This document shows positions 22,742-40,334 of a stretch of DNA of 64,000 nucleotides, in pieces. The stretch comes from Desulfobacula sp. (GTDB taxonomy: Bacteria; Desulfobacterota; Desulfobacteria; Desulfobacterales; Desulfobacteraceae), in NCBI GenBank assembly GCA_023701135.1, contig JAMPXP010000009.1:1-64000 (forward strand). Direction: 5' to 3'. The notes beneath the pieces are model-generated. The model was not told the origin of the DNA. It ran no database searches and worked only from the letters and a program-made list of their open reading frames with translations. A program made the position numbers and the translations under genes. The stretch's first letter is position 1. Every line of letters begins with the position of its first letter.

Positions 22742-22990
22742 ATGGACAATAAAGGAACGCTGGGACTCACACCCCCCAAAAACGCCCGGGAGCTTTTAAA
22801 TATGTATTATTTGGAAGCACGATCCCATCTTCTTGAAACAGCCGCCATCCTGGACCGGATTGAACGGGCGCCGGGGGGAGCGGAAGCCATGGAAGACCCG
22901 AGGATGAAAAGCCTTTTGGACATCTGCGAAATACTGACAAAAGAAAAGGCAAACCGTGCCGAACAATTTTTGATGGCCTTATCTGTATGA
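22742..22990 (+). CDS. Small hypothetical protein upstream of the cupin gene
   Basis: An 82-residue, mostly helical, predicted cytoplasmic protein starting at ATG 22742 with AGGGAG upstream. The pattern (ARELLNMYYLEARSHLLETAAILDRIER, then KSLLDICEILTKEKANRAEQFLMAL) suggests a helical hairpin or bundle. I do not recognise the family. It overlaps the cupin gene by four bases and so probably belongs to the cupin/TatD/kinase/regulator operon. It is much too short to be an EboA protein. Confidence 0.6.
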   Translation: MDNKGTLGLTPPKNARELLNMYYLEARSHLLETAAILDRIERAPGGAEAMEDPRMKSLLDICEILTKEKANRAEQFLMALSV

Positions 22991-23349
22991 AAATGAATTC
23001 CATTGTCCGTTATCTGGATGAAACCCAAGCCGTTCCCTGTCCTTACGGGGATGTCCGGCGCGTGGTCACCGGCGGGGAAGGGACTGCCAATATCCATGTG
23101 GTGAGCGTCACAAAGGGAGGGGAGCATTTTCATAAAGCCTATGACGAGGTTTATTATTTCCTTTCCGGAACAGGGTCTATTACCCTTGATTCAGAGACCT
23201 ATCCGGTGAGGCCGGGAACCGTCACCGTCATACCGGCCGGAATGATTCATTCCCTTTCGTCGGATACGGATGAGCCGCTGTTGTTCATCATCATCGGGAC
23301 ACCGCCCATGTCCATTGAGGATGACCGGGCTGCGCCGCAGAAACCGTGA
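22987..23349 (+). CDS. Cupin-domain protein
   Basis: A 120-residue single-domain cupin. Motif 1 has the metal-ligand pattern EHFHKAYDEVYYFLSG and motif 2 reads PGTVTVIPAGMIHSL, giving His, His, Glu and His ligands. Small cupins of this type bind a divalent metal and act as sugar isomerases, dioxygenases or ligand sensors; the sequence does not decide between them. It overlaps the small helical gene by four bases and is followed 40 bases later by the EboB-like TatD gene, so a role in the same metabolite pathway is inferred. Confidence 0.8.
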   Translation: MKMNSIVRYLDETQAVPCPYGDVRRVVTGGEGTANIHVVSVTKGGEHFHKAYDEVYYFLSGTGSITLDSETYPVRPGTVTVIPAGMIHSLSSDTDEPLLFIIIGTPPMSIEDDRAAPQKP

Positions 23350-23389
23350 TATAAAAGATTAAGGGCTTTAATGACATAGAGGTGATCCA

Positions 23390-24226
23390 ATGAAAATTAT
23401 CGAACCCCATATTCACATGATTGCAAGAACAACCCAGGATTATGAACGCATGGCCCGGATGCATACCGTGGCCTGCTGCGAACCGGCCTTCTGGGCAGGA
23501 TATGACCGGACATCGGCAAAGGCCTTTCATGATTATTTCACTCATATTTCAGAATTCGAGCCCACCCGGGCGGCCCAATACAATATTGATCATTACTGTT
23601 ATATCTGCATGAATCCAAAAGAGGCTGAAAATTTAGGCCTTGCCAGGGAAGTGATTTCCTTTATCCCGGATTTCTTAAACAAACCCACGGTGCTGGGAAT
23701 CGGTGAGATCGGCCTGAACAAAAACACAAAAAATGAAATGACCGTTTTTGAAGAGCAGGTGGAGCTGGCTGTCACCCACAACCAGCTCATGTGGATTCAC
23801 ACCCCCCATCTGAACGACAAATACAAGGGAACAAAAATGATGGTGGACTATCTTAACGGTCACAAAGGAATTGATCCGGGGAAAATCGCCTTTGACCACT
23901 GTGAGGAGCATACCATTAGAATGGTTCTGGATTCAGGCTTCTGGGCATCCATGACCATTTACCCCATGACCAAGAATTCCCCTTCCAGGGTCATTGATGC
24001 GGTTGAAATTTTCGGAATTGAGCGGATCATGGCCGATGCTTCCGGCGACTGGGGGCCTTCCGACCCCAAAACCCTTCATGATGCCGTTTTTGAAATGAAG
24101 ATCCGGGGACACCGGGAAAAGGATGTGGAAACAATTTTTTATAACAACCCCTGTTTTTTCCTGGGCCAGAATCCCAAATTCAAGCATAAACCGATACTAT
24201 CAAGGCAGGATGCCTGGGAGAAATGA
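23390..24226 (+). CDS. TatD-family metal-dependent hydrolase, EboB-like
   Basis: A 278-residue TIM-barrel amidohydrolase of the TatD type. The N-terminal metal motif is EPHIHM; further candidate ligands are Glu in GIGEIGLN, His in IHTPH, FDHCEEHT, and Asp in DASGDWGPSDP. The sequence RTTQDYERMA...EPAFWAGYDRT...FHDYF and YPMTKNSPSR are characteristic of the subgroup found in ebo gene clusters (EboB) rather than of the TatD nuclease. In cyanobacteria ebo genes are needed to move a scytonemin precursor to the periplasm; the role here is unknown. It overlaps the kinase gene by four bases. UbiA and phosphatase-like ebo partners lie 13-16 kb downstream. Confidence 0.8.
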   Translation: MKIIEPHIHMIARTTQDYERMARMHTVACCEPAFWAGYDRTSAKAFHDYFTHISEFEPTRAAQYNIDHYCYICMNPKEAENLGLAREVISFIPDFLNKPTVLGIGEIGLNKNTKNEMTVFEEQVELAVTHNQLMWIHTPHLNDKYKGTKMMVDYLNGHKGIDPGKIAFDHCEEHTIRMVLDSGFWASMTIYPMTKNSPSRVIDAVEIFGIERIMADASGDWGPSDPKTLHDAVFEMKIRGHREKDVETIFYNNPCFFLGQNPKFKHKPILSRQDAWEK

Positions 24227-25641
24227 ACCCCAAAAATAGGAATCGACCACCCGGAAGCCTTCGCATCAGGCTTATGCTTCCGGCCATGGTGTTTATCCTT
24301 ATTTTTTCCATTCTGTTCATTATTATCAACAATTATTATACGTCCAGGATTCTGGACAACCGACTTGAACGCGAAGCCGTCCGGATCTCGGGAATTCTTT
24401 ATGAATACCGATTCGCCCTGAACCCCGCCTATCTGAAATTTCTCGGTAAAATTATCGAGGGACGGATTGCTGTGTTCGACCGGTCCGGTAACGTCATTGC
24501 CGCCTCCTTTGACGAGACGCAAACCCCTGATTTTCTTTTATATGTCAATCCGACTGAAATCGGAAAAAAACATACAGAGAGCGGCCAGGACCAGGTCATT
24601 ATAAAAATAGCCAGGAATAACCATTCTTTTCTTATGGCCTCAAGAAAACTCTTTTTTTCTGATTCAGATGAAAGCATTCTAATTATCATATTAACTCCTC
24701 TGGATGATCTTCAATCGGTAAAATATCAGACCGGTTTGAGAACTTTAGTTTCAGGCAGCTTCGCCCTTATCCTAGCATTTTTTTCAGCAGGATTTGTTTT
24801 AGGGAAAATTTCAGCCGCAGTGGACAATGTACTGAATGTCACCGATAGAATCGCCTCCGGTGATTTTACATGTAGGGCAGAGCTTTCTGATATTCGTGAA
24901 CTCAATACCCTGGCCTTATCCATCAACCGGATGTCGGATAAATTATCTGCCTATGAAAAAAAACTGGTGGATTCCACACGACTGTTATCCGTGAACAAAA
25001 TTACGGCGGCCATGGCCCATGAAATTAAAAACCCTTTATCCAGTATGAAAATGTTGGCCCAGATCATCCAAAAACGTTTTGAGCATGACCCGGAAGGCGT
25101 AGAAATGACGGCGGCTTTTATCAAGGAAATCAATCGCGTGGACACACTGGTGTCCGACCTCCGGACTCTGTCCGGATCAACAAAATATTCATTTTCAATG
25201 GTTCTACCCCGACAGCCTCTTGATGAAATGATACTGGTGATGAAACCAAAGCTGGATCATCTGAATATCCGTCTTGAAACCCGGATTGATCAAGGTCTTC
25301 CGGAAACCCGGATGGACAGGGACAAGATCAAACAAGTCCTCTGGAACCTGATAATGAATGCAGTGGAAAGCATGCCTCAGGGAGGGGCAATTGAAATTTC
25401 CGTGGCACGGGATGATCAGAAACAATATATTGAATACCGGATTCAGGATCAGGGATCAGGCATTGCTCCTGAGTTTCTGACGGATATTTTTACGCCGTTT
25501 TTTACAACCAAAAAAGAAGGCATCGGCATCGGGCTTTATATCAGCAGAGAAATTGCCCTGGCCCATAAAGGTGAAATTCGTATCCATCCGACCGGCCAGG
25601 GCACAGCGGCTGTTCTTTTAATCCCCATCAATGAGACATAA
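24223..25641 (+). CDS. Membrane histidine kinase of an NtrC-type two-component pair
   Basis: A 472-residue sensor kinase. TM1 spans about 17-38, a periplasmic domain of about 130 residues follows, TM2 is near 172-195, then a HAMP domain, a HisKA domain with the phosphorylatable His266 in MAHEIKNPLSS, and an ATPase domain with NLIMNAVES, GSGIAPEF and GIGIGLYISREI. It overlaps the EboB-like gene by four bases and precedes the sigma54 response regulator by 12, so the pair is co-transcribed with, and probably senses something related to, the cupin/TatD pathway. The PEP-CTERM gene nearby recalls PrsK/PrsR kinase-regulator pairs, but this kinase lacks the long PrsK architecture. Confidence 0.9.
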   Translation: MNPKNRNRPPGSLRIRLMLPAMVFILIFSILFIIINNYYTSRILDNRLEREAVRISGILYEYRFALNPAYLKFLGKIIEGRIAVFDRSGNVIAASFDETQTPDFLLYVNPTEIGKKHTESGQDQVIIKIARNNHSFLMASRKLFFSDSDESILIIILTPLDDLQSVKYQTGLRTLVSGSFALILAFFSAGFVLGKISAAVDNVLNVTDRIASGDFTCRAELSDIRELNTLALSINRMSDKLSAYEKKLVDSTRLLSVNKITAAMAHEIKNPLSSMKMLAQIIQKRFEHDPEGVEMTAAFIKEINRVDTLVSDLRTLSGSTKYSFSMVLPRQPLDEMILVMKPKLDHLNIRLETRIDQGLPETRMDRDKIKQVLWNLIMNAVESMPQGGAIEISVARDDQKQYIEYRIQDQGSGIAPEFLTDIFTPFFTTKKEGIGIGLYISREIALAHKGEIRIHPTGQGTAAVLLIPINET

Positions 25642-25653
25642 CAGGCAGGTATT

Positions 25654-27069
25654 ATGGCAGATATTCTTGTAGTGGATGATGAAGAATCCATATGTTATGC
25701 ATTTAAACAGTGCATCCGGCATATGGGGCACACCCCGCATCTGGCTTCCAATGCAAAGGATGCCCTGAAAATAATCTCCATGGTCGACCCGGCTATTATT
25801 TTTCTGGACAATCGACTTCCCGGAGAAAGCGGTATCTCCTTTCTTGAAAAAATAAGAGACCGGCATAAAGAAACGGCTGTAGTGATCATGACCGCTTTCG
25901 GCAATATGGATACGGCCATAGATGCGGTAAAAAAAGGGGCCTATGATTATTTGACAAAGCCGGTTGATCTGCATCAGATTGAAGATATAACCGAAAGGAT
26001 TCTGAAACCCGGGAAGGCTGAATTTGTTTCGGCCCAGGATCAATCAGGTTATGATTTTTATATTCATGAAGACAGCATTATCGGATCAACCGATGCAATT
26101 TCAGACATCTATAAAATGATCGGCCTCCTGACCACCAATGATGTGCCCGTTCTCATTGAGGGGGAAAGCGGAGTGGGAAAGGAACTCGTGGCCCGGGCTA
26201 TCCATAACCGGAGCGACAGGAAGAATTTCCCCTTTGTGGCCATCAATTGCGGTGCCATGCCGGAAAACCTGCTGGAATCAGAGCTGTTCGGGCATGAAAA
26301 GGGCTCATTCACAGGTGCCGATACGGTGAAAATCGGTAAATTTGAATATGCAAAAGATGGGACCCTTTTTCTGGATGAAATCGGGGATTTAAAATTTTCA
26401 CTTCAGATCAAGCTGCTCAGGGTTCTCCAGGAAAAAACCATTGTCCGGGTGGGTGGGCTCAAAACCATTCCGGTCGGTTCTGCAAGGGTGATCACGGCCA
26501 CCAATAAAAATCTTCTGGGAGAAATGAAAGCCGGTCGGTTCAGAAGTGATCTGTATTATCGTCTCCAGTTGATTACCTTGAAAATTCCCCCCTTAAGGGA
26601 AAGGCGCGCTGATATTCCGGAACTCGTATCCCATTTCATCCGCAAGGCAAACAGGGAAATGGGGCTTGATATAAAAGGCATTGAAAAAAATGCCCTGGAG
26701 CTTCTGATGGGCCATCACTGGCCGGGTAATATCCGGGAACTTGAAAATGTCATTAAACGAGGAGCCCTCCTTTCCAGGGTGGAGACCATCGGGCGTCATA
26801 ATATTGAATTTGCAGAAGTACATGGAATTGAAGGAAAAGATCATCTATCGAGTGTTTCGATTTCAGACCAGGTCCGGTTCTGGTTTGAAAAAAGAGAAGA
26901 ACTCTTTCCCAAAACAGACCGGCTCTATTCAGATATCCTTGCTGTTGTAGAACAGACTTTGATTCAAAAAGCCCTGGAAGTCTGTAACAACAACCAGTTG
27001 AAAGCCTCCGACCTTCTCGGCATGAATCGCACCACCTTGAGAAACAAGATCAGGGAGTATGATCTGTAA
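25654..27069 (+). CDS. Sigma54-dependent response regulator (NtrC family)
   Basis: A 471-residue activator with three domains: receiver (1-120, phospho-acceptor Asp52 in IIFLDNRLP), AAA+ domain (about 148-385; Walker A GESGVGKE, the sigma54-contacting loop GSFTGAD with Ser in place of the usual Ala, Walker B GTLFLDEIGD) and a C-terminal Fis-type helix-turn-helix (NNNQLKASDLLGMNRTTLRNKI). It opens sigma54 promoters when phosphorylated, most likely by the kinase 12 bases upstream. Predicted -24/-12 sites at 32472, 33346 and 35074 are natural targets. It converges on the inositol-phosphate synthase gene, the two overlapping by 20 bases. Confidence 0.93.
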   Translation: MADILVVDDEESICYAFKQCIRHMGHTPHLASNAKDALKIISMVDPAIIFLDNRLPGESGISFLEKIRDRHKETAVVIMTAFGNMDTAIDAVKKGAYDYLTKPVDLHQIEDITERILKPGKAEFVSAQDQSGYDFYIHEDSIIGSTDAISDIYKMIGLLTTNDVPVLIEGESGVGKELVARAIHNRSDRKNFPFVAINCGAMPENLLESELFGHEKGSFTGADTVKIGKFEYAKDGTLFLDEIGDLKFSLQIKLLRVLQEKTIVRVGGLKTIPVGSARVITATNKNLLGEMKAGRFRSDLYYRLQLITLKIPPLRERRADIPELVSHFIRKANREMGLDIKGIEKNALELLMGHHWPGNIRELENVIKRGALLSRVETIGRHNIEFAEVHGIEGKDHLSSVSISDQVRFWFEKREELFPKTDRLYSDILAVVEQTLIQKALEVCNNNQLKASDLLGMNRTTLRNKIREYDL

Positions 27070-28252
27070 TCTTTTGGCAATAGTCTTCCAGCAGCCTGAA
27101 CTGCTTTTCAAGGGAATGTTCATCAATACCCCAGGGGGATTTGAAAAAGGATGCCATATGACTCATGACACCGGATTCCCCTCTTTCCAGGGCCAGGATA
27201 CCGAATCTTGCCAGATCCAGGATAAGGGGGGAAGCCAGGGCTGAATCACATCCCTGCCAGGTGAATTGCAGGGTCATTTTGGTATTGAGAAAGCCCTGGA
27301 AATGAATAAAATCCCAGGCGGTTTTTCTATCTCCAAGGGAAGGCACATAATCGATGGATACCCTGGAATGGGGCTGATACCCCAGGATATGGGGTAACAA
27401 TCGGTCTTTGCTCCTGATCTTGGTGGAGCTGTTTTCCGCATTCTGAAGGATTTTCCCGTCCATATTGCCCAGGATATTATAGCCTTCCCAGCTCAGAACC
27501 TCCAGATTCCGCATGGCAAACATGGGGGCAAGGGCCGATTTTACAAGGGTTTCACCTGTTTTACCGTCGCTGCCCATAACCGGAACCCGGTATTCGTGTG
27601 CAAGAGCTGCAAGCCCCCCTGAAAAGCCACCTTCCGACGGGGTAAAATTGATATAGACACATCTTGAGGTAATGGCTGCATAAGCATATATAAGGCTTGG
27701 CCGGATTGTTGAGATTTGATTCTCATCAATAAGTTTAGAGATTGATTCCATGCTCGATAACCCGCTTAATTCTGAAATTTGCGGTTCTGTGGAGGCAAGA
27801 TTGATAACGACGACTTTATCCAGTTTATTTTCAGTTTTAAAGTGGTCGATATCCTCTTTAACTTTTTCTATGGCTTCCTTAATAGAATCAGTTTTAAATA
27901 CATGCCCCTGTTCGGAAATCTCTGATATGGCCATGCCCGCATTCAGGGTGATTCCAGGAAATGTTTTTATCTGGATTTCTTTGATTTGTTGCCCGATCTC
28001 CCAAATCTCCTGAATATTTTCAAGCCCCAAATCCTTTAATGCATTTAGAGAATCAGCGCAGGATCTGATGTCCCAACCGCCGAAAACAAAATCCGACAAA
28101 GGAGTAAATTTTATTTTATTAAAGGGCTTTTTTTCTGATATCAATCCTGTGGCAGGACAAAGGTTTTTTGAGACTGCAATGGCGCCTGCCATTACAGTTG
28201 TTGATAAATGACCACATACTCCGACAAACAGGACGCCAACTTTATGATCCAT
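27050..28252 (-). CDS. Inositol-3-phosphate synthase (myo-inositol-1-phosphate synthase family)
   Basis: NAD-dependent enzyme that cyclises glucose 6-phosphate to inositol 3-phosphate. From ATG 28252 (GGGAG just upstream; the frame is open to 28306) it has 400 residues. The Rossmann start GVLFVGVCGHLSTTVMAGAI, the NFTPSEG segment, GSDGKTGETLVKSALAPMF, the GYNILGNMDG motif and DYVPSLGDRKTAWDFIHF follow the family pattern. It is encoded opposite the response regulator. Synthases of this type occur near ebo-like genes in some genomes (from memory, unverified), and here it sits between the EboB-like gene and the UbiA/phosphatase operon, suggesting it supplies a cyclitol building block. A 13-bp stem-loop lies 80-112 bases upstream. 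Confidence 0.88.
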   Translation of the reverse strand: MDHKVGVLFVGVCGHLSTTVMAGAIAVSKNLCPATGLISEKKPFNKIKFTPLSDFVFGGWDIRSCADSLNALKDLGLENIQEIWEIGQQIKEIQIKTFPGITLNAGMAISEISEQGHVFKTDSIKEAIEKVKEDIDHFKTENKLDKVVVINLASTEPQISELSGLSSMESISKLIDENQISTIRPSLIYAYAAITSRCVYINFTPSEGGFSGGLAALAHEYRVPVMGSDGKTGETLVKSALAPMFAMRNLEVLSWEGYNILGNMDGKILQNAENSSTKIRSKDRLLPHILGYQPHSRVSIDYVPSLGDRKTAWDFIHFQGFLNTKMTLQFTWQGCDSALASPLILDLARFGILALERGESGVMSHMASFFKSPWGIDEHSLEKQFRLLEDYCQKITDHTP

Positions 28253-28331
28253 GACAGACTCCCAAAATGAATACCGTAACGAATTGAACAGAGGAATTCT
28301 TACCAAATATACAGGAATAGTTAAACAAAAC

Positions 28332-28364
28332 GCAACTTAATAACCGGGGGAGTTATTAAGTTGC
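28332..28364. repeat. Perfect 13-bp inverted repeat in the leader of the inositol-phosphate synthase
   Basis: GCAACTTAATAAC (28332-28344) and GTTATTAAGTTGC (28352-28364) flank the loop CGGGGGA. On the minus strand it is followed by GTTTTGTTT, so it may be a weak terminator for the HEAT-repeat gene or an operator/attenuator for the synthase. The rest of 28253-28603 is very AT-rich; I see no gene in it. Confidence 0.5.
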
Positions 28365-28603
28365 TATGTAAGGGGAATTACATATTTTGTTTAAGATTAT
28401 AAGAAGCAATGATCGTACCATTTAAAGGATAGAATTGAATTTAAATTTATTATTGGAATAACTATTTGAATTATTACTATAAAATTTAAATTTTGATAGC
28501 GGATTTTTAAACAGGGCGCCTAATAAAGAATTAAATATTGAGAGAATAAATTCATATTTTGTTCATATTTTGACAATATCTGTTAAATTTTAACCATTAC
28601 ACC

Positions 28604-29362
28604 TCAAGATTTTTCGACTTTTCTCATGAGCTCTTGTGCCCTCTCCCTTTCACGGCCATCAGCGCTCCTCATCACATTTCTGAGAATCACCTTTTTCGTC
28701 TCAACGGTTGAAACCGGAGATTCAACATATTTAATCAACTGGTTTGAAATCGATTCATCCAGGGGTACGGACCGGTTGAAATAGGATAAGATCCTAACCA
28801 CTTCGGTGGGGCTTTCCAGCCTTTTTCCAACCGCATTGGTTAACGCCTGATGTGCCTCCCGGGTTCCGATTCTTCCCAGGGCCTGTAGAGAAGTGTGCAG
28901 GATTCGATTATCCTCTGTATGCCCGACAAGGGTGATAATTTTTTGGATCGAGTCCGGATCATTCTCTTGCGCTTTTTGAATCAAGCTGTTCAGTGTTAAT
29001 GGATCAACCGGATCTTTACCTGCACCGAGATTGTTATTTCCTGCTTGTGGCGGCTGATGCCCACCATTCTTTTGGACTACCGTACCATGCATTGGGTGAT
29101 TTACATTTTCCGGTTTCGGCGATTCCGCTTTTAAAGGTTCTGCCATGGGAGGCCCTTGAGCGGTATCACTATTCAGCCTATTTGTGCCGGCAGGTGAATC
29201 CCTCCGGACTATTTTTTCTGCATGACCATCGGATTTTTCCAAGTGGGTCTCATTCTTTTTTTTTATAAACGTATTTTGATTGTTAAGGAACAAATGCCCC
29301 AGAAAAACAAAACATATAAACGCAATGGCATAACCGGTCACTATCAATGTCTTTTTACTCAT
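28604..29362 (-). CDS. Membrane-anchored HEAT-repeat protein
   Basis: A 252-residue protein with an N-terminal membrane anchor (about 5-26), a Pro/Asn/Lys-rich linker of about 100 residues, and C-terminal helical repeats (about 125-250) of HEAT type (for example ILHTSLQALGRIGTREAHQALTNAV). Such domains bind proteins; the domain is predicted to face the periplasm. It lies downstream of the large secreted toroid protein, beyond a strong terminator, so it may have its own promoter or depend on read-through. Function unknown. Confidence 0.6.
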   Translation of the reverse strand: MSKKTLIVTGYAIAFICFVFLGHLFLNNQNTFIKKKNETHLEKSDGHAEKIVRRDSPAGTNRLNSDTAQGPPMAEPLKAESPKPENVNHPMHGTVVQKNGGHQPPQAGNNNLGAGKDPVDPLTLNSLIQKAQENDPDSIQKIITLVGHTEDNRILHTSLQALGRIGTREAHQALTNAVGKRLESPTEVVRILSYFNRSVPLDESISNQLIKYVESPVSTVETKKVILRNVMRSADGRERERAQELMRKVEKS

Positions 29363-29403
29363 ACCAGACAGATCTCCACCTAATCCTGTTAAAATGTTGT
29401 GCC

Positions 29404-29440
29404 AAAAAAAACGGCCGCCGAAAATTTCTTCCGGCGGCCG
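29404..29440 (-). terminator. Intrinsic terminator of the large secreted-protein gene
   Basis: CGGCCGCCG pairs with CGGCGGCCG (arms 29432-29440 and 29412-29420) around an 11-base loop. On the minus strand it is followed directly by eight T residues (A at 29404-29411). It lies 30 bases past the stop codon of the 981-residue gene. Confidence 0.85.
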
Positions 29441-29469
29441 AAACTTAAATACTCACCGTATCCCTGCGA

Positions 29470-32415: not shown

Positions 32416-32471
32416 ATAAGTTCCCCCGAATAATAAATTTTTATTACAGTAGAATTCCCCTTAACACAGCC

Positions 32472-32488
32472 GGCAAGTGTTCCCCCAC
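32472..32488 (-). promoter_or_regulatory. Predicted sigma54 promoter of the secreted PKD/toroid gene
   Basis: On the minus strand the sequence reads TGG-8-TTGC, with GG and GC ten bases apart, as required for -24/-12 promoters. The -24 part is TGGGGG rather than TGGCAC, so the match is moderate. The predicted start lies about 45 bases before the ATG at 32415. Confidence 0.45.
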
Positions 32489-32574
32489 AAGCTCGGCTGG
32501 AATTGCTTCAATGTCTCACCCCCCTCTTATTGTTCTGTTATTGTGTTTTACGCTTTTTAATTATTTCAACGCAC

Positions 32575-32614
32575 AAGTACATTTCCTGAATTAATACAGG
32601 AAATGTACTTTTTT
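32575..32614. terminator. Perfect 14-bp hairpin after the PEP-CTERM gene
   Basis: AAGTACATTTCCTG (32575-32588) and CAGGAAATGTACTT (32597-32610) pair around an 8-base AT loop. The T-run is on the plus-strand side (32609-32616), although the gene that ends next to it (32644) is on the minus strand. It probably ends or stabilises the minus-strand message and may block plus-strand transcription. Confidence 0.65.
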
Positions 32615-32643
32615 CTCAAAAGTTGGAGCAGGTTCGTGGCTTT

Positions 32644-33279
32644 TTATTTTTTCCTTTTCAGTGCAGTCATGGCAAGCATGCCGAAACCAAAAAGAATCAT
32701 GGTGCCGGGTTCCGGGATCGGATCAGGGCCTGTGCCTTGCCAGCGCTCAAAGTCCACATTGTCGATTTTGAAAAGATCGGCATCACTCCCTTTTAATGCA
32801 CTGGTAATAAATAAAGTATCAAAACCACCTGCAATAGTCAGTGATATGTGTTCATAATCTGCAACAGATTCAGTTAAAACACCATAGCTGACGCCGCCCT
32901 TAAATGCTTCATAGCTGATTGTTGAAGCACTGGGAACACTGCCAATATTACTGATATCAAAGGAAAAAGATCCGAAAATCAGACCTGCCGTAGCCTGAAT
33001 ACCGATAAATGTTTCATAGACTGGCGAGGTTGTTGTTGGGCCGGATTTTGTACCATCATTGTACCCACTGACAAGATAATTGTCGCCTGGTGAGTCGCTG
33101 TCATCAATCCAGGTATCATTAAGAAGAGCTGGATCTCCTGCATAAAACTGAACATTTGAAATTAATGGATCAGTATGACCCGGTACTACCGTGCTGAAAT
33201 CAATAATCGTTGAAAACGCCTGACCCACTCCTAATAGTAAAAACAGAGCGACAGTCAGTAAAACAGATTTTTTATTCAT
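32644..33279 (-). CDS. PEP-CTERM sorted exported protein
   Basis: A 211-residue precursor with an N-terminal signal peptide (cleavage near GQAFS) and a C-terminal PEP-CTERM tail: PIPEPGTMILFGFGMLAMTALKRKK (about 187-211), i.e. the Pro-Glu-Pro motif, a hydrophobic segment and a basic end. Such proteins are processed by an exosortase and placed at the surface, often with exopolysaccharide. The mature part is beta-rich and of unknown function. No exosortase gene is in the window. A strong sigma54 promoter match precedes it, as described for PrsK/PrsR-controlled PEP-CTERM genes. Confidence 0.88.
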   Translation of the reverse strand: MNKKSVLLTVALFLLLGVGQAFSTIIDFSTVVPGHTDPLISNVQFYAGDPALLNDTWIDDSDSPGDNYLVSGYNDGTKSGPTTTSPVYETFIGIQATAGLIFGSFSFDISNIGSVPSASTISYEAFKGGVSYGVLTESVADYEHISLTIAGGFDTLFITSALKGSDADLFKIDNVDFERWQGTGPDPIPEPGTMILFGFGMLAMTALKRKK

Positions 33280-33345
33280 AATGAATTCCCCCTTTAAAAT
33301 ATAAATAATTATTACCCCCTACCCAAAAACTCTTGTTGTGATTAT

Positions 33346-33363
33346 TAGCATTTATCGTGCCAG
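33346..33363 (-). promoter_or_regulatory. Predicted sigma54 promoter of the PEP-CTERM gene
   Basis: The minus strand reads TGGCACG-4-ATGCT, differing from the TGGCACG-4-TTGCT consensus at one position, with GG and GC exactly ten bases apart. The predicted start lies about 55 bases before the ATG at 33279. No gene is seen in 33280-33541 besides this. Confidence 0.7.
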
Positions 33364-33541
33364 AAAAAAATATGCCGCAAAGATACTTAACATGCTGAAA
33401 TTAAAGCAATTTTATTTGAATGGGGTTTTTATATGTAAAAAAAGTATGATAAGGCTGAAAAAGATTTCATAAAACTATGAAATAAATGTAATAAATGAAA
33501 AGAATTCTGAACGGAATATTCGGCATTATATTTAAATTATT

Positions 33542-34168
33542 TTATATTTTCATAACAAAAGGCCAGATGAGCAGGGGAACCAAAACCGCCATGAAAATAC
33601 CGGCACCGGATCCTTCTCCGGAAACCTGCCCCATCCATGAGAACAAGAGACATGCCGGTAGGGAACCGGTCAGAAGGGCTGCTGTAAACCGTGAAAATCT
33701 CATTCCTGAAAGTCCTGCAAGGATCGATACAATTTCGGGCAGCATCGGCAGTATCCTGCTGATGATCACGGCATATCCTCCCCATTGATCAAAAAAAAGT
33801 CTGAACCGATTCATTTCATCATCCGAGGCAAGGTATCGAGCCGCCCGGTATCCTAAAAGCCTTGCCGTTCCATACCCGATGATACCGGCACCGGCGGTTC
33901 CTGCCACGCCCAGAGCCGCACCCTCCCATATGCCGTACACCGCCCCAAGCGCTGCGATCACGCCTGTTGCCGGAATCGGTAAAACCAGATCCGACAATAA
34001 GAGCAGGATTCCGATGAGCCAGGCCCAGGACCGGATATCGGAAAATAAAGCGGTGCAGGCCTTGAAATCCAAAAAAGCCTCAAGACTTTCTCCCCAGATC
34101 AAAAATGAAAAAAGAAAGATAGTCCCTGTCAAAACAAAAACAGTGAGTAGTTTTAATACCGGTTTCAT
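33542..34168 (-). CDS. VTT-domain (TVP38/TMEM64/DedA-like) membrane protein
   Basis: A 208-residue integral membrane protein with about five or six hydrophobic segments. The core LVLPIPATGVIAALGAVYGIWEGAALGVAGTAGAGIIGYGTARLLG, followed by FDQWGGYAVIISRILPMLPEIVSILAG, is the conserved VTT region with its re-entrant loop and Arg-X-X-Pro. Members act in lipid scrambling or undecaprenyl-phosphate recycling in other bacteria; the role here is not shown. It follows the YdjY-like gene by 21 bases in the same direction, so the two are probably co-transcribed. Confidence 0.8.
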   Translation of the reverse strand: MKPVLKLLTVFVLTGTIFLFSFLIWGESLEAFLDFKACTALFSDIRSWAWLIGILLLLSDLVLPIPATGVIAALGAVYGIWEGAALGVAGTAGAGIIGYGTARLLGYRAARYLASDDEMNRFRLFFDQWGGYAVIISRILPMLPEIVSILAGLSGMRFSRFTAALLTGSLPACLLFSWMGQVSGEGSGAGIFMAVLVPLLIWPFVMKI

Positions 34169-34189
34169 TCGGAAACATCCAGGTGAAGC

Positions 34190-34975
34190 CTATGGCGCAC
34201 TTTTTCTGATCCTGAATTTTACAGGCATCCCCTTTGGCGGCAGAACATTTTTATTTGCCCAATACCGGGTGTCATCCTCGCCGGAGGGGAGCGGGTGACC
34301 GATCATTGCATAGGGATCATGATAGGTGGCAACAATGGACTGCTCCACCTGGGCCATGAATCTGCCGTTGACAATCTGGGACCCTGTATAAATCCAGTGA
34401 GTCTTTTCCATACTTTGGTCGGTCCTTTTGTCAAGCAACAAGTCTTCGGCCCTGTATGTCACCAATTTTTTTTCAGGGTTGATCCATGACACCCAGATTT
34501 CAATGGAATCCCCCTCCGGAATCCCTTGGTGCCCCTGTTGTTTAAACCGGTTTATTCCAGGCTCAAGTCCCAGCAGCAGCATGGCTATTTGAAGATCAAA
34601 AGGCTCTGCGATTAATTTTAACACACTTTCATGAAGCTTTCCGGCTTCACCGCAGGCTAGATATTCCACAATTCCGTCCTGCTGATTGACCTCACCGTCC
34701 ACCAGAACATATTCTTCTCTTTTGTTCACCGTGATATTACCAACTCTGAAGATACCGTCTTCAACCTTTTGGATGGGCGGCGGAGATGAGGCCTTATTTC
34801 CTTTGTTTTTATTTTTATCCCATAACGGGGCATCCCGCCCCGGAAGAGGCACGGGTTGTTTGTCGGAATCTGCTGAATTTTTAACGGTGTTTGTTTCCTC
34901 TGAAAAAACAGGTGGCGTCATCGTGGTCATCGTGACAAAAAGGCAAAGCATCAAGATCATCGGTAGTCGTTTCAT
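34190..34975 (-). CDS. Exported YdjY-domain protein
   Basis: A 261-residue precursor starting at the ATG with AGAGGAC upstream; the frame is open to 35161. Signal peptide at 1-27 (MILMLCLFVTMTTMTPPVFS), a Pro/Lys-rich linker, and a YdjY-like domain (about 80-258: DGIVEYLACGEAGKLHESVLKL, AMLLLGLEPG, and the end HDPYAMIGH...DDTRYWANKNVLPPKGMPVKF). The end matches the frameshifted copy at 21989-22728 closely, so the two are paralogues and this is the intact one. Function unknown. It is probably transcribed with the VTT-domain gene from a sigma70-like promoter at 35022-35050. Confidence 0.75.
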   Translation of the reverse strand: MKRLPMILMLCLFVTMTTMTPPVFSEETNTVKNSADSDKQPVPLPGRDAPLWDKNKNKGNKASSPPPIQKVEDGIFRVGNITVNKREEYVLVDGEVNQQDGIVEYLACGEAGKLHESVLKLIAEPFDLQIAMLLLGLEPGINRFKQQGHQGIPEGDSIEIWVSWINPEKKLVTYRAEDLLLDKRTDQSMEKTHWIYTGSQIVNGRFMAQVEQSIVATYHDPYAMIGHPLPSGEDDTRYWANKNVLPPKGMPVKFRIRKSAP

Positions 34976-35021
34976 AACATTGTCCTCTAAATGTTGATCA
35001 TAAAAGATGATATTACTAGAA

Positions 35022-35050
35022 TATTTAATCGTTTCATTTCTTTGCGTCAA
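35022..35050 (-). promoter_or_regulatory. Sigma70-like promoter of the YdjY/VTT operon
   Basis: On the minus strand TTGACG (35045-35050) and TAAATA (35022-35027) are separated by 17 bases. It faces the YdjY-like gene starting at 34975. Confidence 0.4.
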
Positions 35051-35073
35051 GCCTTGATTTCCTGCAACATCCT

Positions 35074-35090
35074 CTGGTATGTAATTTGCT
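35074..35090 (+). promoter_or_regulatory. Predicted sigma54 promoter of the toroid/Ebo-like operon
   Basis: TGGTATG-4-TTGCT (35075-35090) has GG and GC ten bases apart and a consensus -12 half. The predicted start near 35101 gives a leader of about 90 bases before the ATG at 35193. It is the likely target of the NtrC-type regulator at 25654. Confidence 0.6.
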
Positions 35091-35192
35091 TTCTTTACAC
35101 AAATTGTACAGCCCGGGTTTATATTTAATCCGGATGACCGAACCGACTCTTTATGAGTCAAAAACCATTATGACTTAATTTGGGAGGAAATA

Positions 35193-36419
35193 ATGAAATC
35201 GTTCAAAATAAAAAGTTCTGTCACAAAGCACCTGCTGATTTTATCGGTTATGTCATGCCTGATGTGTTCATCGTTTTTAAACACTCCCGTATCCGCAAGT
35301 CAAACTATTCTCAAGTCCGACCACGATATGGTGTCTTTGAAAAACGAGCTCATCCGGACCTATAAAATGGGGTTCGATTATCTGAAAAAAAGCCAGAACC
35401 CGGACGGGTCCTGGTCAAACCCCGGCTTTCCCGCTCTCACCGGGCTGGTGGTGTATGCATTTCTCACCTCCCCGGAATATTTAAACCAAAAAGAAAAACC
35501 GGAATTCATTCAAAAGGCCCTGGGCTACATTGTGAGCAATGCCAAGGATAACGGGGCCATCTATAAGGAGGGCCTTCCCAACTACAATACCGCCATCTGT
35601 GTCATGGCCCTTCTGGCAGCCAATGACGCCAAATATCATCCTTATATCCTCAAGGCCCGGCGATTTATCGTGACCGAGCAACTGGATCAGGGAGAGCAAG
35701 GCGTCGCCGATCAACCTCTGGATGGCGGGATTGGATACGGCACCAAGGATCATTCAGACATGTCCAATACCTATATTGCGCTGGAAGCCATGAAAGCCAG
35801 CGAATTTCTGGAATCCGACGACCAGCTCGCAGCCTATGTGGACCTTCAGGGCCTTCAGAACAAACCCCTGGACTGGGACGCGGCCTTAAAATTTATCCAG
35901 AGATGCCAGAACCTGCCCGGTTCCAATGACCAGGCCTGGTCCAGCGCAGACCCGAAGAACAAGGGAGGGTTTGTGTATTTCCCAGGCAACAGCAAAGCCG
36001 GAGAAGAGGATCTTGGGAACGGCAAAAAGGCGCTGCGCTCCTACGGCTCCATGACCTATGCCGGCCTTTTGAGCTTTATTTTTGCCGACCTGAAAAAAGA
36101 GGATCCCAGGGTCCAGGCTGCCTATGGATGGCTCAAGAATAATTATACCCTGGAAGAAAACCCTGGTGTGGGCCAGGAAGGCCTCTACTATTATTACCAC
36201 ACCATGGCCAAGGCCCTGACGCTGTATGGCGAAGACTTTATGGCGCTTGAAAATGGAAAAAAAATTGACTGGAGGAAAGAAATGGCGGTCAAATTTGTGA
36301 ATAATCAGAGAGAGGACGGCTCCTGGATCAATCCAACGGCCCGGTGGTGGGAGAATGATCCTGTTCTGGTCAGTGCCTATTCCTTGATTTCTTTGAACAT
36401 GATCACTCCGAAATTATAA
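35193..36419 (+). CDS. Exported alpha/alpha-toroid protein (prenyltransferase/squalene-cyclase-like repeats)
   Basis: A 408-residue precursor with a signal peptide (cleavage near PVSA/SQTI). The mature part shows the repeats of the alpha/alpha-toroid fold: FDYLKKSQNPDGSW near the start, an inner YIVSNAKDNGAIY repeat, AALKFIQRCQ and FVNNQREDGSW near the end (QW-like motifs). No DXDD or DXXDXX acid motif of terpene cyclases is evident, so cyclase activity is doubtful and a binding or structural role is as likely. The start has GGGAGG nine bases upstream. It leads the operon that continues, ten bases later, with the TIM-barrel, UbiA and phosphatase-like genes. Confidence 0.8.
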   Translation: MKSFKIKSSVTKHLLILSVMSCLMCSSFLNTPVSASQTILKSDHDMVSLKNELIRTYKMGFDYLKKSQNPDGSWSNPGFPALTGLVVYAFLTSPEYLNQKEKPEFIQKALGYIVSNAKDNGAIYKEGLPNYNTAICVMALLAANDAKYHPYILKARRFIVTEQLDQGEQGVADQPLDGGIGYGTKDHSDMSNTYIALEAMKASEFLESDDQLAAYVDLQGLQNKPLDWDAALKFIQRCQNLPGSNDQAWSSADPKNKGGFVYFPGNSKAGEEDLGNGKKALRSYGSMTYAGLLSFIFADLKKEDPRVQAAYGWLKNNYTLEENPGVGQEGLYYYYHTMAKALTLYGEDFMALENGKKIDWRKEMAVKFVNNQREDGSWINPTARWWENDPVLVSAYSLISLNMITPKL

Positions 36420-36429
36420 CAGGGGCTAT

Positions 36430-37263
36430 ATGAAATTCGCCTTCAGTACCAATGCATTCAGGAATTTTCCATTTTCCGATGCGGCAGCGGCCGTGTCCAA
36501 CGCTGGGTACACCGGCATTGAAATCATGTGCGATACCCCCCATGCCTTTCCCGGCCAACTGCCGGCCACCGGTATCCGGGATATCAGGGAGAGTCTGAAA
36601 CAGAACCACCTGGCCATCTCCAATCTGAATGCCTTCATGATGTGCGCGGTGCAGGATTTTCATCATCCGTCCTGGATAGAGAAAGATGAGGCCTTCCGGC
36701 AGATAAGAATCCAATATACCCTGGATTGTATTGATCTGGCGGCAGAGCTGGGTGCAAAAACCATTTCCACGGAGCCCGGAGGCCCCCTTCCTGACGGGAT
36801 GGACCGGGAGACGGCCCTTTCCATTTTTTCCGAAGGGTTGAAAGCCGTCCTTCCCCGTGCAGAAGATAAGGGCATCCGGGTGCTCATTGAGCCGGAACCG
36901 GATCTTCTCATCCAGACCTCGGATGAATATCTCTCTTTTATGGAAGGGTTCACCCACCCGAACCTCGGGCTGAATCTGGATGTGGGTCATTTTTATTGTG
37001 TGGGCGAGGACCCGGCCCAAGTCATATTGAAGCTCAAGGATCATACCCGGCATTATCACCTTGAAGATATCCCAAAAAACAGGGAACACCGGCATATCCT
37101 TCCTGGGCATGGAGGGATTGATATGACAGGGGTATTGCATTCCATTGAGAAAACAGGATATGAGGGCTTTGTCACGGTGGAGTTGTATCCCTATCTGGAT
37201 GCGCCGGTAAAGGCCGCAGAAGAAGCGCTGATCTATCTAAAAAGAGCCCTTGGCCATGATTAA
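36430..37263 (+). CDS. Sugar phosphate isomerase/epimerase-like TIM-barrel protein
   Basis: A 277-residue protein of the xylose-isomerase-like TIM-barrel superfamily. Candidate metal ligands are Glu in LIEPEPD, Asp and His in NLDVGHF, His in HLEDIPKNREHRHILPGHGGID, and Glu in VTVELYPY. These enzymes isomerise or epimerise sugars, keto acids or cyclitols; a substrate cannot be named, but with inositol-3-phosphate synthase nearby an inosose-type substrate is attractive. It starts ten bases after the toroid gene and its stop codon overlaps the UbiA start (ATGATTAA). A second, divergent family member ends the operon. Confidence 0.8.
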   Translation: MKFAFSTNAFRNFPFSDAAAAVSNAGYTGIEIMCDTPHAFPGQLPATGIRDIRESLKQNHLAISNLNAFMMCAVQDFHHPSWIEKDEAFRQIRIQYTLDCIDLAAELGAKTISTEPGGPLPDGMDRETALSIFSEGLKAVLPRAEDKGIRVLIEPEPDLLIQTSDEYLSFMEGFTHPNLGLNLDVGHFYCVGEDPAQVILKLKDHTRHYHLEDIPKNREHRHILPGHGGIDMTGVLHSIEKTGYEGFVTVELYPYLDAPVKAAEEALIYLKRALGHD

Positions 37264-38131
37264 AAAAATAGTAACGGTTTTCGAACTTATCCGGTTGCCC
37301 GGCATGTTCACGGCCCATGCCGACATCCTGGCCGCATTTTTGATTACAGGTGCGGGGTTGGGCCGTTTCGGCTCCCTAATCTGGATTTTAATCGCCTCGT
37401 CCTGTCTGTTTTCCGCAGGCATGGCCTTAAACGATTATTTTGACATTGAGGTGGACAGAAAAGAAAGACCCAAACGACCCATCCCTTCCGGCCGGATATC
37501 CGGTCCGGCAGCCGGGGCCATCGGGTTTGGGCTGCTGGTTGCCGGAATCTGCGCCGCCGGTTTTGCCGGCCTCAAGCCCTTCGCTATCAGCCTTGCCCTG
37601 GCCGCCGCCATTCTGCTCTACGACGGTCTGCTGAAGGATTACCCGGTTCTAGGACCGCTGACCATGGCTGCCTGCCGGTATTTTAATGTTCTCATGGGGT
37701 TGTCCATTCTGCCGTTCGAAGGCTGGGCCTATATTCCGTTCATCACCTTCCTGTATATTTTCGGCGTCACCGTATTGAGCAAAAAAGAAGCAGCAGGCGG
37801 GAAGGCAGTCAAGACGGTTGGCGTCTGTGCCTTGTTTTTGGGGTGCGCGGCCCTGCTCTATTATTATCTTTTTCTCATCCGGATTCTGCCCGTATTTACC
37901 GGCGCCTTCCTGATGATGGCCTTTGCCGTTTTTTTATCCGGCCGTGTCCTAAGCTTGCTGACCCATCACAGCCCATTGGATTTTCAAGCCGCCATGAAAC
38001 TTCTCTTGCTGTCCATTATCATTCTTGATACCATCCTTGCATCAGGATCAGTGCCGGTTTATGCCGCGGCTCCCATTCTTTTGCTGTATGTTCCGGCAGT
38101 CTTGTCGGCCCGGCTTTTCCGGGTCACATAA
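37256..38131 (+). CDS. UbiA-family prenyltransferase, EboC-like
   Basis: Integral membrane prenyltransferase, 291 residues from the ATG overlapping the previous stop; a TTG lies six bases earlier. The first Asp-rich motif is NDYFDIEVDRKERPKRPIPSG and the second lies around YDGLLKDYPVLGP, both expected for Mg-prenyl-diphosphate binding, with about eight or nine membrane segments. Its sequence and placement between TIM-barrel and phosphatase-like genes fit the EboC subgroup more than quinone biosynthesis. The acceptor is unknown; a cyclitol or sugar phosphate is an inference from the neighbours. The next gene begins 30 bases on. Confidence 0.85.
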   Translation: MIKKIVTVFELIRLPGMFTAHADILAAFLITGAGLGRFGSLIWILIASSCLFSAGMALNDYFDIEVDRKERPKRPIPSGRISGPAAGAIGFGLLVAGICAAGFAGLKPFAISLALAAAILLYDGLLKDYPVLGPLTMAACRYFNVLMGLSILPFEGWAYIPFITFLYIFGVTVLSKKEAAGGKAVKTVGVCALFLGCAALLYYYLFLIRILPVFTGAFLMMAFAVFLSGRVLSLLTHHSPLDFQAAMKLLLLSIIILDTILASGSVPVYAAAPILLLYVPAVLSARLFRVT

Positions 38132-38161
38132 ATTTTATTAATTTCTGTTAAAGGAGTCATG

Positions 38162-39508
38162 ATGTACCCGCATGTGTTCTGTTTTAATATCGTGGGTCTT
38201 TCTCCGGCGCTTTTAAATAAGCTCATTGACATGCCGGGATTTTCCGGACTCATGAAAACCGGTCAAAAAACCGATCTGGAACCTGTTTTCCCCTGTCTCA
38301 CCCTTCCGGGGCAGGCCTCTTTTTCAACCGGGACCTATCCTTGCGACCATGGCATCGTCGCCAATGGCTTTTTCAACCGGGACCGGTTTGAGGTCAGCTT
38401 CTGGGACCAATACCGGTCCCTGGTCCAGGCGGAACCACTCTGGGAAAGCATGAAACAGCAGGCCCCGGACCTTAGGACCGCTCTTTTGTTCTGCCAGAAC
38501 AGCCTTTACGGTCAAGCCGATTTTATTGTCACGCCCAAACCCATGCATACGGATGAAGGCCTGATTCAATGGTGTTATTCCAAACCCGTGGGATTGTATG
38601 AGGGCCTTGTCAGGGATATCGGCAGGCCCTTCAATCTCATGGACTATTGGGGGCCCTTTGCCTCCTCAAACGCCTCCCAGTGGATCATGGAGGCCGCCAT
38701 CCGTCTGGTGGAAACCCATCAGCCCCATTTCATGGTCACTTATATTCCCCACCTTGACTATTCGTGTCAGAAATTCGGGCCCCATGATCCAAGGGTGGAT
38801 GAGGATTTGAAAATCATTGACCAGATGATGGCGGAGTTTATGCTTGCCCTTGAAAAAAAAGGGCTCCGGGAGAATACAACGATCTGTGTTTTTTCCGAAT
38901 ATTCCCTTTCCCCGGTCACTGAAGCCGTTCTTTTGAACATAGCCCTGCGCAGGGCGGGTTTTTTAACGGTCCGTGACATTGAAAATCGCGAATACCTTGA
39001 TTTTGAAATGAGCCGGGCCTTTGCCATGGTGGATCACCAGGTGGCCCATATCTATATCAGGGATAAAAAGGATATCGCGCCTGTAAAAAAATGCATTGAA
39101 ACCCTGGCCGGAGTCAACAGGGTGCTTGATGAAACCGGGAAAAAAACCTTCCGGATTGATCATGAAAGATCCGGGGAACTTGTGGCGGTTTCAGACCCGG
39201 ACAAATGGTTTGCCTATTACTGGTGGGACAATCCGGAAAAGGCTCCGGACTTTGCATCCCATATCGATATCCACAGAAAACCGGGATACGACCCCCTTGA
39301 GCTGTTCATGGATTTGCAAACCTTTAAGATTCCCCAGAAAACAAACCTCATCAAAGGTTCCCATGGGGCACCGCCGCGAAACGGAGAGGGAATGGCCGTA
39401 TTGATGCTAAGCGGAAAAAGAGCCGCCTCTCTATCCTTACCGAAAACAATGAAGATGGTGGAGGTTTCACCAATACTGAGGACCATGGCAGGCTTTTCCG
39501 ATGTTTAA
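38162..39508 (+). CDS. Alkaline-phosphatase-fold (nucleotide pyrophosphatase-like) protein, EboF-like
   Basis: A 448-residue metallo-phosphoesterase of the nucleotide pyrophosphatase/phosphodiesterase type. The nucleophile region FPCLTLPGQASFSTGTYPCDHGIVANGFF carries the expected Thr, and YIPHLDYSCQKFGPHDP supplies Asp and His ligands; FSEYSL stands where SDHG is usual, which may alter metal binding. KGSHGAPPRNGEG gives the last His. No signal peptide is seen, so it is predicted to be cytoplasmic. The pattern fits the EboF-like proteins encoded with EboB and EboC. ATG 38162 is favoured (AGGAG five bases upstream) over 38159. It overlaps the second TIM-barrel gene by eight bases. Confidence 0.82.
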   Translation: MYPHVFCFNIVGLSPALLNKLIDMPGFSGLMKTGQKTDLEPVFPCLTLPGQASFSTGTYPCDHGIVANGFFNRDRFEVSFWDQYRSLVQAEPLWESMKQQAPDLRTALLFCQNSLYGQADFIVTPKPMHTDEGLIQWCYSKPVGLYEGLVRDIGRPFNLMDYWGPFASSNASQWIMEAAIRLVETHQPHFMVTYIPHLDYSCQKFGPHDPRVDEDLKIIDQMMAEFMLALEKKGLRENTTICVFSEYSLSPVTEAVLLNIALRRAGFLTVRDIENREYLDFEMSRAFAMVDHQVAHIYIRDKKDIAPVKKCIETLAGVNRVLDETGKKTFRIDHERSGELVAVSDPDKWFAYYWWDNPEKAPDFASHIDIHRKPGYDPLELFMDLQTFKIPQKTNLIKGSHGAPPRNGEGMAVLMLSGKRAASLSLPKTMKMVEVSPILRTMAGFSDV

Positions 39509-40334
39509 GCTCGGTTATAATACCAATGGATTTGCAAACCATTCCCTTTTATCAGCCATTGATATCATCGGCTCCCTCGGATATGACGGCATCGCCCTTA
39601 CCATTGACCACCATGCCCTGAACCCCTGGGATGAGCGCTTCAAAAAAACCATTTTTGAAGTCAAAAAAAAACTGGACCATTATGCTTTATCGTCGGTTGT
39701 GGAAACCGGGGCAAGATTTCTACTGGACCCCCGGATCAAACACGAACCCACTCTGATTTCAACGGACTTGAAAAAAAGGGAAGCCCGGATCTCTTTTATT
39801 GAAAAATGCCTTGAAATTGCATCCGAGCTGAATTCAGACGCCGTGTCCATCTGGTCCGGGAAAATACTGCCGGGTGTGGATGCGCCACAGGCTTGGGAAT
39901 GGCTGGTATCAGGATGCGTGAAACTTTCTGAAAAAGCTTCTGAATATGGGCTCTATATCGGTTTTGAACCTGAACCCGGCATGTTTGTGGAAACCATGGA
40001 TCAATACCGCCTTTTAAAAGAAAGGGTGAACCATGATTTTTTCAGACTCACTCTGGATCTCGGCCACGCCTTCATAACCGAAGCGGATGTTCCGGAGACG
40101 CTTTGGACCTACCGTGCGGACATCGTCAACATTCATCTGGAGGATATGAAAAAGCACATTCATGATCACCTTTTTTTCGGTGAGGGAGATATGGATTTTG
40201 AAACCATTCTCCAGACCCTTGATGTAATCGGTTACAACGGTCAGGTCAATATTGAACTGAGCCGTCACAGTCATAACGCGCCTGAGATATCGGAAAAAGC
40301 CATCAGGTTCATCAAAAATATCAGGACAGGATAA
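39501..40334 (+). CDS. Second sugar phosphate isomerase/epimerase-like TIM-barrel protein
   Basis: A 277-residue xylose-isomerase-like TIM barrel, same length as the protein at 36430 but clearly divergent. Candidate metal ligands: Glu in IGFEPEPGMF, Asp and His in LTLDLGHAF, His in NIHLEDMKKHIHDHLFFGEGDMDF, and Glu in VNIELSRHSH. It begins eight bases inside the phosphatase-like gene and is the last gene of the operon; the T2SS operon starts 82 bases later. A role in the same Ebo-like pathway is inferred; it may be the counterpart of the TIM-barrel EboE. Confidence 0.8.
   Translation: MFKLGYNTNGFANHSLLSAIDIIGSLGYDGIALTIDHHALNPWDERFKKTIFEVKKKLDHYALSSVVETGARFLLDPRIKHEPTLISTDLKKREARISFIEKCLEIASELNSDAVSIWSGKILPGVDAPQAWEWLVSGCVKLSEKASEYGLYIGFEPEPGMFVETMDQYRLLKERVNHDFFRLTLDLGHAFITEADVPETLWTYRADIVNIHLEDMKKHIHDHLFFGEGDMDFETILQTLDVIGYNGQVNIELSRHSHNAPEISEKAIRFIKNIRTG

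Follow-up and report, generated by a model that had tools for sequence, protein, structure and literature searches.

The ebo cluster, the closest described relative of the locus considered here, comprises eboA to eboF with a variant that contains eboG, and is known from Bacteroidetes, Cyanobacteria, eustigmatophyte plastids and Deinococcales; the substrate of EboD has only been guessed (PMC5133447, in the portion available). In Nostoc, the available portion of PMC6282210 describes the Ebo proteins as required for the scytonemin monomer to reach the periplasm, reports that all ebo mutants studied accumulate this same monomer and not stepwise intermediates, and proposes a prenylated cyclitol carrier; scytonemin also needs an exosortase (PMC12188702, likewise in part). 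Here we analyze a stretch of 64,000 nucleotides from Desulfobacula sp. (the first 64,000 positions of contig JAMPXP010000009.1, our C16, in an assembly of 4.8 Mb and 42 contigs), hereafter called the window, where a region between 22060 and 40334 shares with ebo the EboB-, EboC-, EboF- and EboG-type proteins, a TIM-barrel partner and the clustering of the genes. Within it, an inositol-phosphate synthase (MIPS) occupies the place of EboD, and two other TIM barrels, TIM1 and TIM2, occupy that of EboE. The region is a conserved, probably regulated, MIPS-containing variant of ebo, for which no description was found in the literature searched.

An earlier note, made from the letters of this DNA, had named most of the genes concerned; all of these are present where it put them, and their classes are matched by profile searches (NCBIfam, Pfam) of 20 window proteins. 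The cluster genes are full-length open frames and lie in three blocks. A first plus-strand block (22060-27069) encodes a YdjY-domain protein, a small helical protein that the note had overlooked, a cupin, a TatD-like hydrolase, a histidine kinase and an NtrC-type regulator. The minus-strand block (27050-35161) holds MIPS and genes for HEAT-like, PKD, PEP-CTERM, VTT and a second YdjY-domain protein, and a second plus-strand block (35193-40334) encodes a toroid protein, TIM1, a UbiA prenyltransferase, a PF01663 phosphodiesterase and TIM2. Beyond what ebo contains, the window has a kinase/regulator pair of the sigma54 type, the exported toroid and proteins of the YdjY and PEP-CTERM kinds. Neither EboA nor EboD has a match among the 20 window proteins scanned, and no protein of the genome exceeds the EboE cut-off (NF035939, 250 bits), the best being TIM1 with 38.9 bits. 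A search of the genome for EboA gave no match, but its controls also gave none, so that this search shows little. The resemblance to ebo claimed in the earlier note stands for the EboB, EboC and EboF types and extends to the EboG type, although the set is not canonical: a canonical ebo operon was rejected, EboD and EboE being missing from the window and EboC staying below its NCBIfam cut-off.

MIPS (27050-28252, minus strand, open frame to 28306; PF07994 2.6e-47, PF01658 2.8e-34) starts at the ATG at 28252, which follows gggagt. A profile built from five cluster MIPS proteins was run on genomes of the order (389) and of the phylum (395) and exceeded 567 bits in 8/389 and 15/395 of them, respectively, the next score being at most 257; the Desulfobacula genome is counted in both sets, the carriers amount to 22 different genomes, and fragmentary MIPS genes, lying at contig ends or containing stops (e.g. 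G478, G168 and G634), were not classed. The stretch fetched around MIPS contains EboB-, EboC-, EboF-, EboG- or TIM-type genes in 21 of these 22 genomes. The exception, G435, is represented by a contig of 8.9 kb on which the regulator adjoins MIPS, and where neither an EboC-like gene nor a pair of MIPS with a TIM barrel of the TIMa type (MIPS-TIMa) was found. By comparison, 0 of 20 other MIPS genes, lower-scoring but chosen among the better ones of that class, have Ebo- or TIM-type neighbours, some having generic kinases or regulators (Fisher p 8e-11, a guide only as the genomes are related). This control rules out a chance neighbourhood of MIPS and Ebo-type genes, and establishes the conserved linkage in relatives on which the earlier note had made its proposal depend.

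The sequences themselves also set this MIPS apart. In a tree from which the MIPS of locus L124 was excluded, 28 cluster-type sequences form a clade apart from the 20 other MIPS. The window MIPS is 45-47% identical to four relatives with four lysines conserved; Lys 278, 282, 310 and 371, invariant in five relatives, align with K274, K278, K306 and K367 of Archaeoglobus fulgidus MIPS (1u1i), which we take to be catalytic residues, and this archaeal enzyme resembles the cluster type with 399.9 bits to its profile. One could suppose that the region merely serves ordinary inositol metabolism, for phosphatidylinositol or an osmolyte, and that the UbiA, TatD and phosphodiesterase genes are unrelated neighbours. 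MIPS is indeed widespread as an enzyme, and pairs of MIPS and TIM occur in the absence of EboC; however, the separate clade, the linkage of 21/22 against 0/20 and the recurrence of related sets in Streptomyces, Gemmatirosa and haloarchaea make this explanation very improbable. A queC-like gene (judged by eye) lies upstream of MIPS-TIMa in L192 and L200, and a Gemmataceae EboB locus (L124:10001-17875) contains, on the opposite strand and some 6 kb away from EboB, a MIPS of 441 bits, possibly a planctomycete version.

The occurrence of MIPS or EboD is near-exclusive. Among 17 genomes searched (16 of the 22 MIPS carriers plus the EboD-type genome G153), EboD exceeds its cut-off only in G153 and in the Desulfobacula genome, and the EboD-type genomes G153 and G767 have no match to the cluster MIPS profile. 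The locus of G767 (L054, Desulfobacteraceae) has the order UbiA-EboG-EboB-EboF-EboD-EboE, and its EboC is nested within the MIPS-type EboC clade (support 0.99), which we take as a sign of module exchange.

Comparison with other genomes reveals that the window holds one conserved cluster, rearranged in this genome. Two loci of other families present it as a single run, with histidine kinase (HK) and response regulator (RR) genes included: HK-RR-MIPS-YdjY-toroid-TIMa-TIM1-UbiA-EboG-EboB-EboF in L049 (= L185), and EboG-EboB-HK-RR-MIPS-toroid-TIM1-UbiA-EboF-TIM2 in L190, whose layout is similar in L189. Near-complete versions from other families lack the toroid (L191), EboF in the stretch (L045/L051) or EboG (L038), and that of L050 is interrupted by contig ends. 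The duplicate contigs L185 (= L049) and L051 (= L045) were excluded from trees. The split order is common to two genomes of the same family (L187/L225 and L188/L224, the halves of the latter separated by about 20 kb), which places the split at the level of the family at least. The view of the earlier note that the set is Ebo-related and split is thus borne out. Judged by EboB, a Desulfotignum metagenome-assembled genome is the closest relative that bears a name (93%). As to the arrangement in relatives, in the nearest one (L046:8224-10410) EboB is directly followed by the VTT gene, the kinase, regulator, MIPS, PKD and PEP-CTERM genes being absent between them, and in a same-family genome two toroid genes (L224:3646-4848 and 8880-10064) flank TIM1-UbiA-EboF-TIM2.

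Such rearrangement could also mean that the cluster is degenerating, its split and inverted segments and a stray EboD being the remains of a broken ebo system that is now functionless. Relative to L049 and L190 the gene order is broken up, an EboD-like gene lies on another contig (C12), and the cluster MIPS is absent from all 20 same-genus genomes listed. Yet the open frames are full-length, the MIPS lysines are retained, sigma54-type sites accompany the split units, the kinase unit showing an uninterrupted run of genes instead, and two same-family genomes have a similar split order, all of which renders decay very unlikely.

The cluster spans Desulfobacterota-type relatives and has counterparts in Actinomycetota, Gemmatimonadota and haloarchaea. 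Two Streptomyces plasmids carry MIPS-SCO3242-TIM2-EboA-TatD-EboE-EboF, a cluster that shares with the window a MIPS adjoining an EboC-like UbiA, a TIM2-type TIM barrel, TatD and EboF, but differs in having EboA and EboE and in giving no EboG, toroid or YdjY match in the stretch. In one of them (L229:6563-17113), a gene of the ScyD/ScyE family lies upstream of the cluster and one for a multicopper oxidase downstream. The order in Gemmatirosa is EboG-EboB-EboF-UbiA-MIPS-TIM2, with EboE on the opposite strand. Of the haloarchaeal plasmids, that of Natronococcus has TatD-TIM1-UbiA-TIMa-MIPS-EboF and that of Halocatena has MIPS and EboF divergent; the same six functions, with TIM barrels of the TIM1 and TIMa clades, are thus present, but no EboG, toroid, YdjY or two-component match was obtained in the stretch. 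Both window TIM barrels are of the xylose-isomerase-like type (TIM1, 36430-37263, PF01261 6.1e-43; TIM2, 39501-40334, PF01261 1.7e-37; plus strand), and in the TIM tree TIM1 falls into one clade with a haloarchaeal cluster TIM (0.99) and TIM2 with the TIM adjoining MIPS in Streptomyces and Gemmatirosa (support 1.0). No description of a MIPS-containing ebo variant was found in the literature searched, although parts of it are visible in public Streptomyces annotation; inositol is not mentioned in the ebo literature searched, nor did we find a paper joining MIPS, a UbiA family prenyltransferase, TatD and a sugar phosphate isomerase in a gene cluster. SCO3242 or SCO3243 are named in two transcriptome papers. 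The arrangement, of which the earlier note knew no description, is one of the orders taken by a cluster that occurs across Desulfobacterota-type relatives.

The individual Ebo-type proteins were compared with their known homologues. The small protein overlooked before (22742-22990, plus strand, open frame from 22679) starts at the ATG at 22742 following gagggaga, and its structure model is helical with a mean predicted local distance difference test (pLDDT) score of 88. A 24-sequence profile of this protein matches a hypothetical protein encoded between EboD and EboB on a Deinococcus plasmid (3.3e-23), and because eboG taxa include Deinococcus (available portion of PMC5133447) we designate it EboG-type, a predicted identity with the published EboG that runs via the taxon and not via published sequences. 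Matches above 40 bits occur at 49/80 EboB loci, in 45/80 directly upstream of EboB, three of the 80 loci being also in the training of the profile and many contigs being short. The EboB-type TatD-like metal hydrolase (23390-24226, plus strand; PF01026 5.9e-11) is 75% identical to EboB of L040/L045, 51-53% to that of Deinococcus and 39-43% to the listed Streptomyces TatD proteins of ebo-type clusters, with His, Glu and Asp residues invariant among four relatives. Between the two genes lies the cupin gene (22987-23349, plus strand; PF07883 1.4e-13), which also adjoins EboB in L187 and L188 of the same family and in L046.

The UbiA prenyltransferase (37256-38131, plus strand) finds its best NCBIfam model in EboC (NF035940) with 197.6 bits, below the cut-off of 250, followed by SCO3242 (NF045897) with 153.5 bits and a cut-off of 260. 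In the tree it groups with EboC/SCO3242, apart from the four other UbiA proteins of the genome and from five of seven others sampled, the non-ebo frames of L011 (241 residues) and L023 (120 residues) lying inside the EboC side on long branches. Sequences from L047, L225, L187 (partial) and L072 (a frame of 807 residues) were excluded from this tree, and the Streptomyces UbiA frame is N-terminally shortened. The EboC-like character proposed in the earlier note is supported by best model and tree position, the score staying below cut-off. The protein keeps NDxxDxxxD, and the best solved-structure match of a six-sequence EboC-like profile is digeranylgeranylglyceryl phosphate (DGGGP) synthase (6m31, 90 bits), an archaeal membrane-lipid enzyme that differs in being a superfamily relative only. 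On contig C12 (L044:3496-7394), a TIM barrel and an EboD-like cyclase come first, then a methyltransferase-like frame in the opposite orientation, then a UbiA gene; the latter was rejected as a second EboC, since the tree places it among non-ebo UbiA proteins. The EboF-type protein (38159-39508, plus strand; PF01663 7.6e-55) belongs to a set in which, counting matches above 300 bits only, Gln and Tyr replace metal-binding His of the ENPP enzymes in 23/23 sequences from both cluster types, with the Thr and the last His of the ENPP pattern retained; the EboF passage of PMC5133447 makes no remark on altered ligands, and that paper nowhere uses the term "active site". Whereas the Ebo subgroup of UbiA is supported by a tree, that of TatD and the phosphatase is supported by similarity and the shared ligand pattern.

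The own two-component control foreseen in the earlier note is reflected in profile matches to a sensor histidine kinase with HAMP (24223-25641, plus strand) and an NtrC-type sigma54 response regulator (25654-27069, plus strand), and the same pair is found near MIPS in relatives: a related kinase stands beside the same regulator in L045, L187, L188, L189 and L190 (214-480 bits; truncated in L049), and the regulator adjoins MIPS in L049 and L186-L190 and is one gene apart from it in L045. Three sigma54-type -24/-12 sites score at least 11.5 between 20 and 42 kb of the window, against 0.9 expected from 20 mononucleotide shuffles, and all three lie upstream of cluster genes on the correct strand. 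The first (28405-28420, minus strand, TGGTACGATCATTGCT) starts 168 bases upstream of the MIPS ATG, the second (33347-33362, minus strand, TGGCACGATAAATGCT) 83 bases upstream of the PEP-CTERM gene and the third (35075-35090, plus strand, TGGTATGTAATTTGCT) 118 bases upstream of the toroid operon. A site scoring at least 11 is present within 300 bases of the MIPS-holding unit in 7/9 loci, compared with 8/514 control genes, which include some window genes. Against such control, L045 is counted via a TonB-receptor gene chosen after its site was seen, its own MIPS having no site (otherwise 6/9); no site lies within 300 bases of MIPS in L188 and L190, of the toroid gene in L187, L189 and L224 or of the PEP-CTERM gene in L190, and none was found upstream of MIPS in L038 and L199, which are outside the nine loci; in L191 a site is present, but the regulator is absent from the stretch. 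Seven of nine MIPS units have a site, whereas the toroid and PEP-CTERM sites are not conserved in the relatives tested; sigma54 control therefore appears likely for MIPS and possible for the other genes. The TonB-receptor-like gene (judged by eye) that, with its sigma54-type site, heads the MIPS unit in L045:9688-11826 could point to uptake or export of a compound.

Besides these genes, the window encodes several proteins that would act on the periplasmic side. The exported squalene-cyclase-like toroid protein (35193-36419, plus strand; PF13243 4.3e-9), which leads its operon, is 48-51% identical to five relatives and present in 9/11 MIPS-type loci having an EboC-like gene, in agreement with the combination of exported toroid and Ebo-like set seen by the earlier note. 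The best fold matches of its low-confidence model are the AprG transaldolase, squalene-hopene cyclase and MstE, and show a toroid only; a normal class II terpene cyclase is not supported, as a conserved DxDD is absent. YdjY genes, found in 8/11 of the same loci, are represented by the first YdjY-domain protein (22060-22728, plus strand; NF040466, 140.5 bits), which leads the EboG-EboB-kinase unit, and by the second (34190-35161, minus strand; NF040466, 123.6 bits over residues 143-319), with a true start probably within the frame. We consider as accessory an exported PKD-repeat protein (29470-32415, minus strand; PF18911 1.6e-14) and a PEP-CTERM/XDP1-like surface protein (32644-33279, minus strand; NF041927, TIGR02595); homologues of 1003 and 87 bits, respectively, adjoin the L190 cluster, directly upstream and on the opposite strand. 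The genome has two exosortase genes. The membership of a VTT/DedA membrane protein (33542-34168, minus strand; PF09335 9.7e-17), with relatives in L046, L186, L224 and L225, is uncertain; after TIM2, at 40417, lies the type II secretion gene GspG.

The reading that we prefer, and to which we attach an even chance, is that of an ebo-type cluster, probably under sigma54 control, in which MIPS replaces EboD, other TIM barrels replace EboE and a prenylated cyclitol arises at the membrane. MIPS would convert glucose 6-phosphate to an inositol phosphate, which TIM1 and TIM2 would isomerise, epimerise or dehydrate. The EboC-like membrane enzyme would add a prenyl chain to the cyclitol, comparable to DGGGP synthase acting on a polyol phosphate, and EboB, EboG and EboF would process or assemble the product, most likely an inositol or cyclitol that bears a prenyl chain and is used at the membrane. 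At the inner membrane, it would most likely serve as a carrier or handle by which a small molecule reaches the periplasm; there the exported proteins of the cluster (toroid, YdjY and PEP-CTERM/PKD) would act. The kinase and the NtrC-type regulator would activate MIPS, the PEP-CTERM gene and the toroid-TIM1-UbiA-EboF-TIM2 operon via the -24/-12 promoters. Substrates and products, the roles of the TIM barrels and the toroid, the regulation and the carrier function are what we infer from gene content and homology.

The chemistry of the TIM barrels opens a second route, in which they would dehydrate and aromatise an inosose or a quinate-like cyclitol to a polyhydroxybenzene and EboC would prenylate this ring, the prenylated compound itself (a quinone, pigment or signal, exported afterwards) then being the function. 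TIM1 and TIM2 do have weak matches to inosose dehydratase (TIGR04379; 48 and 45 bits, respectively) and still weaker ones to dehydroshikimate dehydratase QuiC (27 and 22 bits); they score higher, however, with sugar epimerase/isomerase models (58-68 bits), all of these values being far below the cut-offs. Many UbiA enzymes prenylate aromatics, but the best structure match of the EboC-like profile, DGGGP synthase, acts on a polyol phosphate, and the one scytonemin monomer shared by the Nostoc ebo mutants does not suggest stepwise intermediates. EboC homologues farnesylate quinolines in vitro and prefer them (PMC9235831, in the portion available). On this account the aromatic product is retained as an alternative, though a rather unlikely one.

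This preference for quinolines is one of several observations that weigh against the prenylated cyclitol proposed above. The EboD-like gene on C12 (NF004852, 531 bits) means that this genome has both MIPS and EboD, so that the statement of the earlier note that EboD-like genes are not seen holds for the 20 window proteins scanned but not for the whole genome. Streptomyces and Gemmatirosa have EboE beside MIPS, and the TIM barrels are therefore not its substitute everywhere. EboC-like genes are present in 10/22 MIPS-subgroup genomes, and MIPS-TIMa occurs without an EboC-like gene in 11/22, of which 8/11 also have TIM1 (L192-L198 and L200-L203); the ring module can thus work without this prenylation. 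With its canonical ligands lost, a role of EboF as a plain zinc phosphatase is doubtful. The structure model of the toroid is weak (mean pLDDT 62), and the string DxDD occurs in only 1/6 sequences (L050) and is absent from the window protein. Finally, with 20/20 same-genus genomes lacking this MIPS, the cluster is patchy.

Since 2016, when the operon received its name, the chemistry of its product has been an open question. In MIPS, unlike EboD, substrate and product are known, and its position in the place of EboD points to a cyclitol in the product. If the ring step is interchangeable between EboD and MIPS, in bacteria as well as archaea, ebo would be modular and its product would be a prenylated cyclitol, possibly with an inositol head, that acts as a general lipid handle for taking small molecules across the inner membrane; we put this generalization forward tentatively, as possible but short of probable. 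The MIPS-type clusters offer organisms (Streptomyces, haloarchaea and desulfobacteria) and a defined first intermediate for finding the ebo product.

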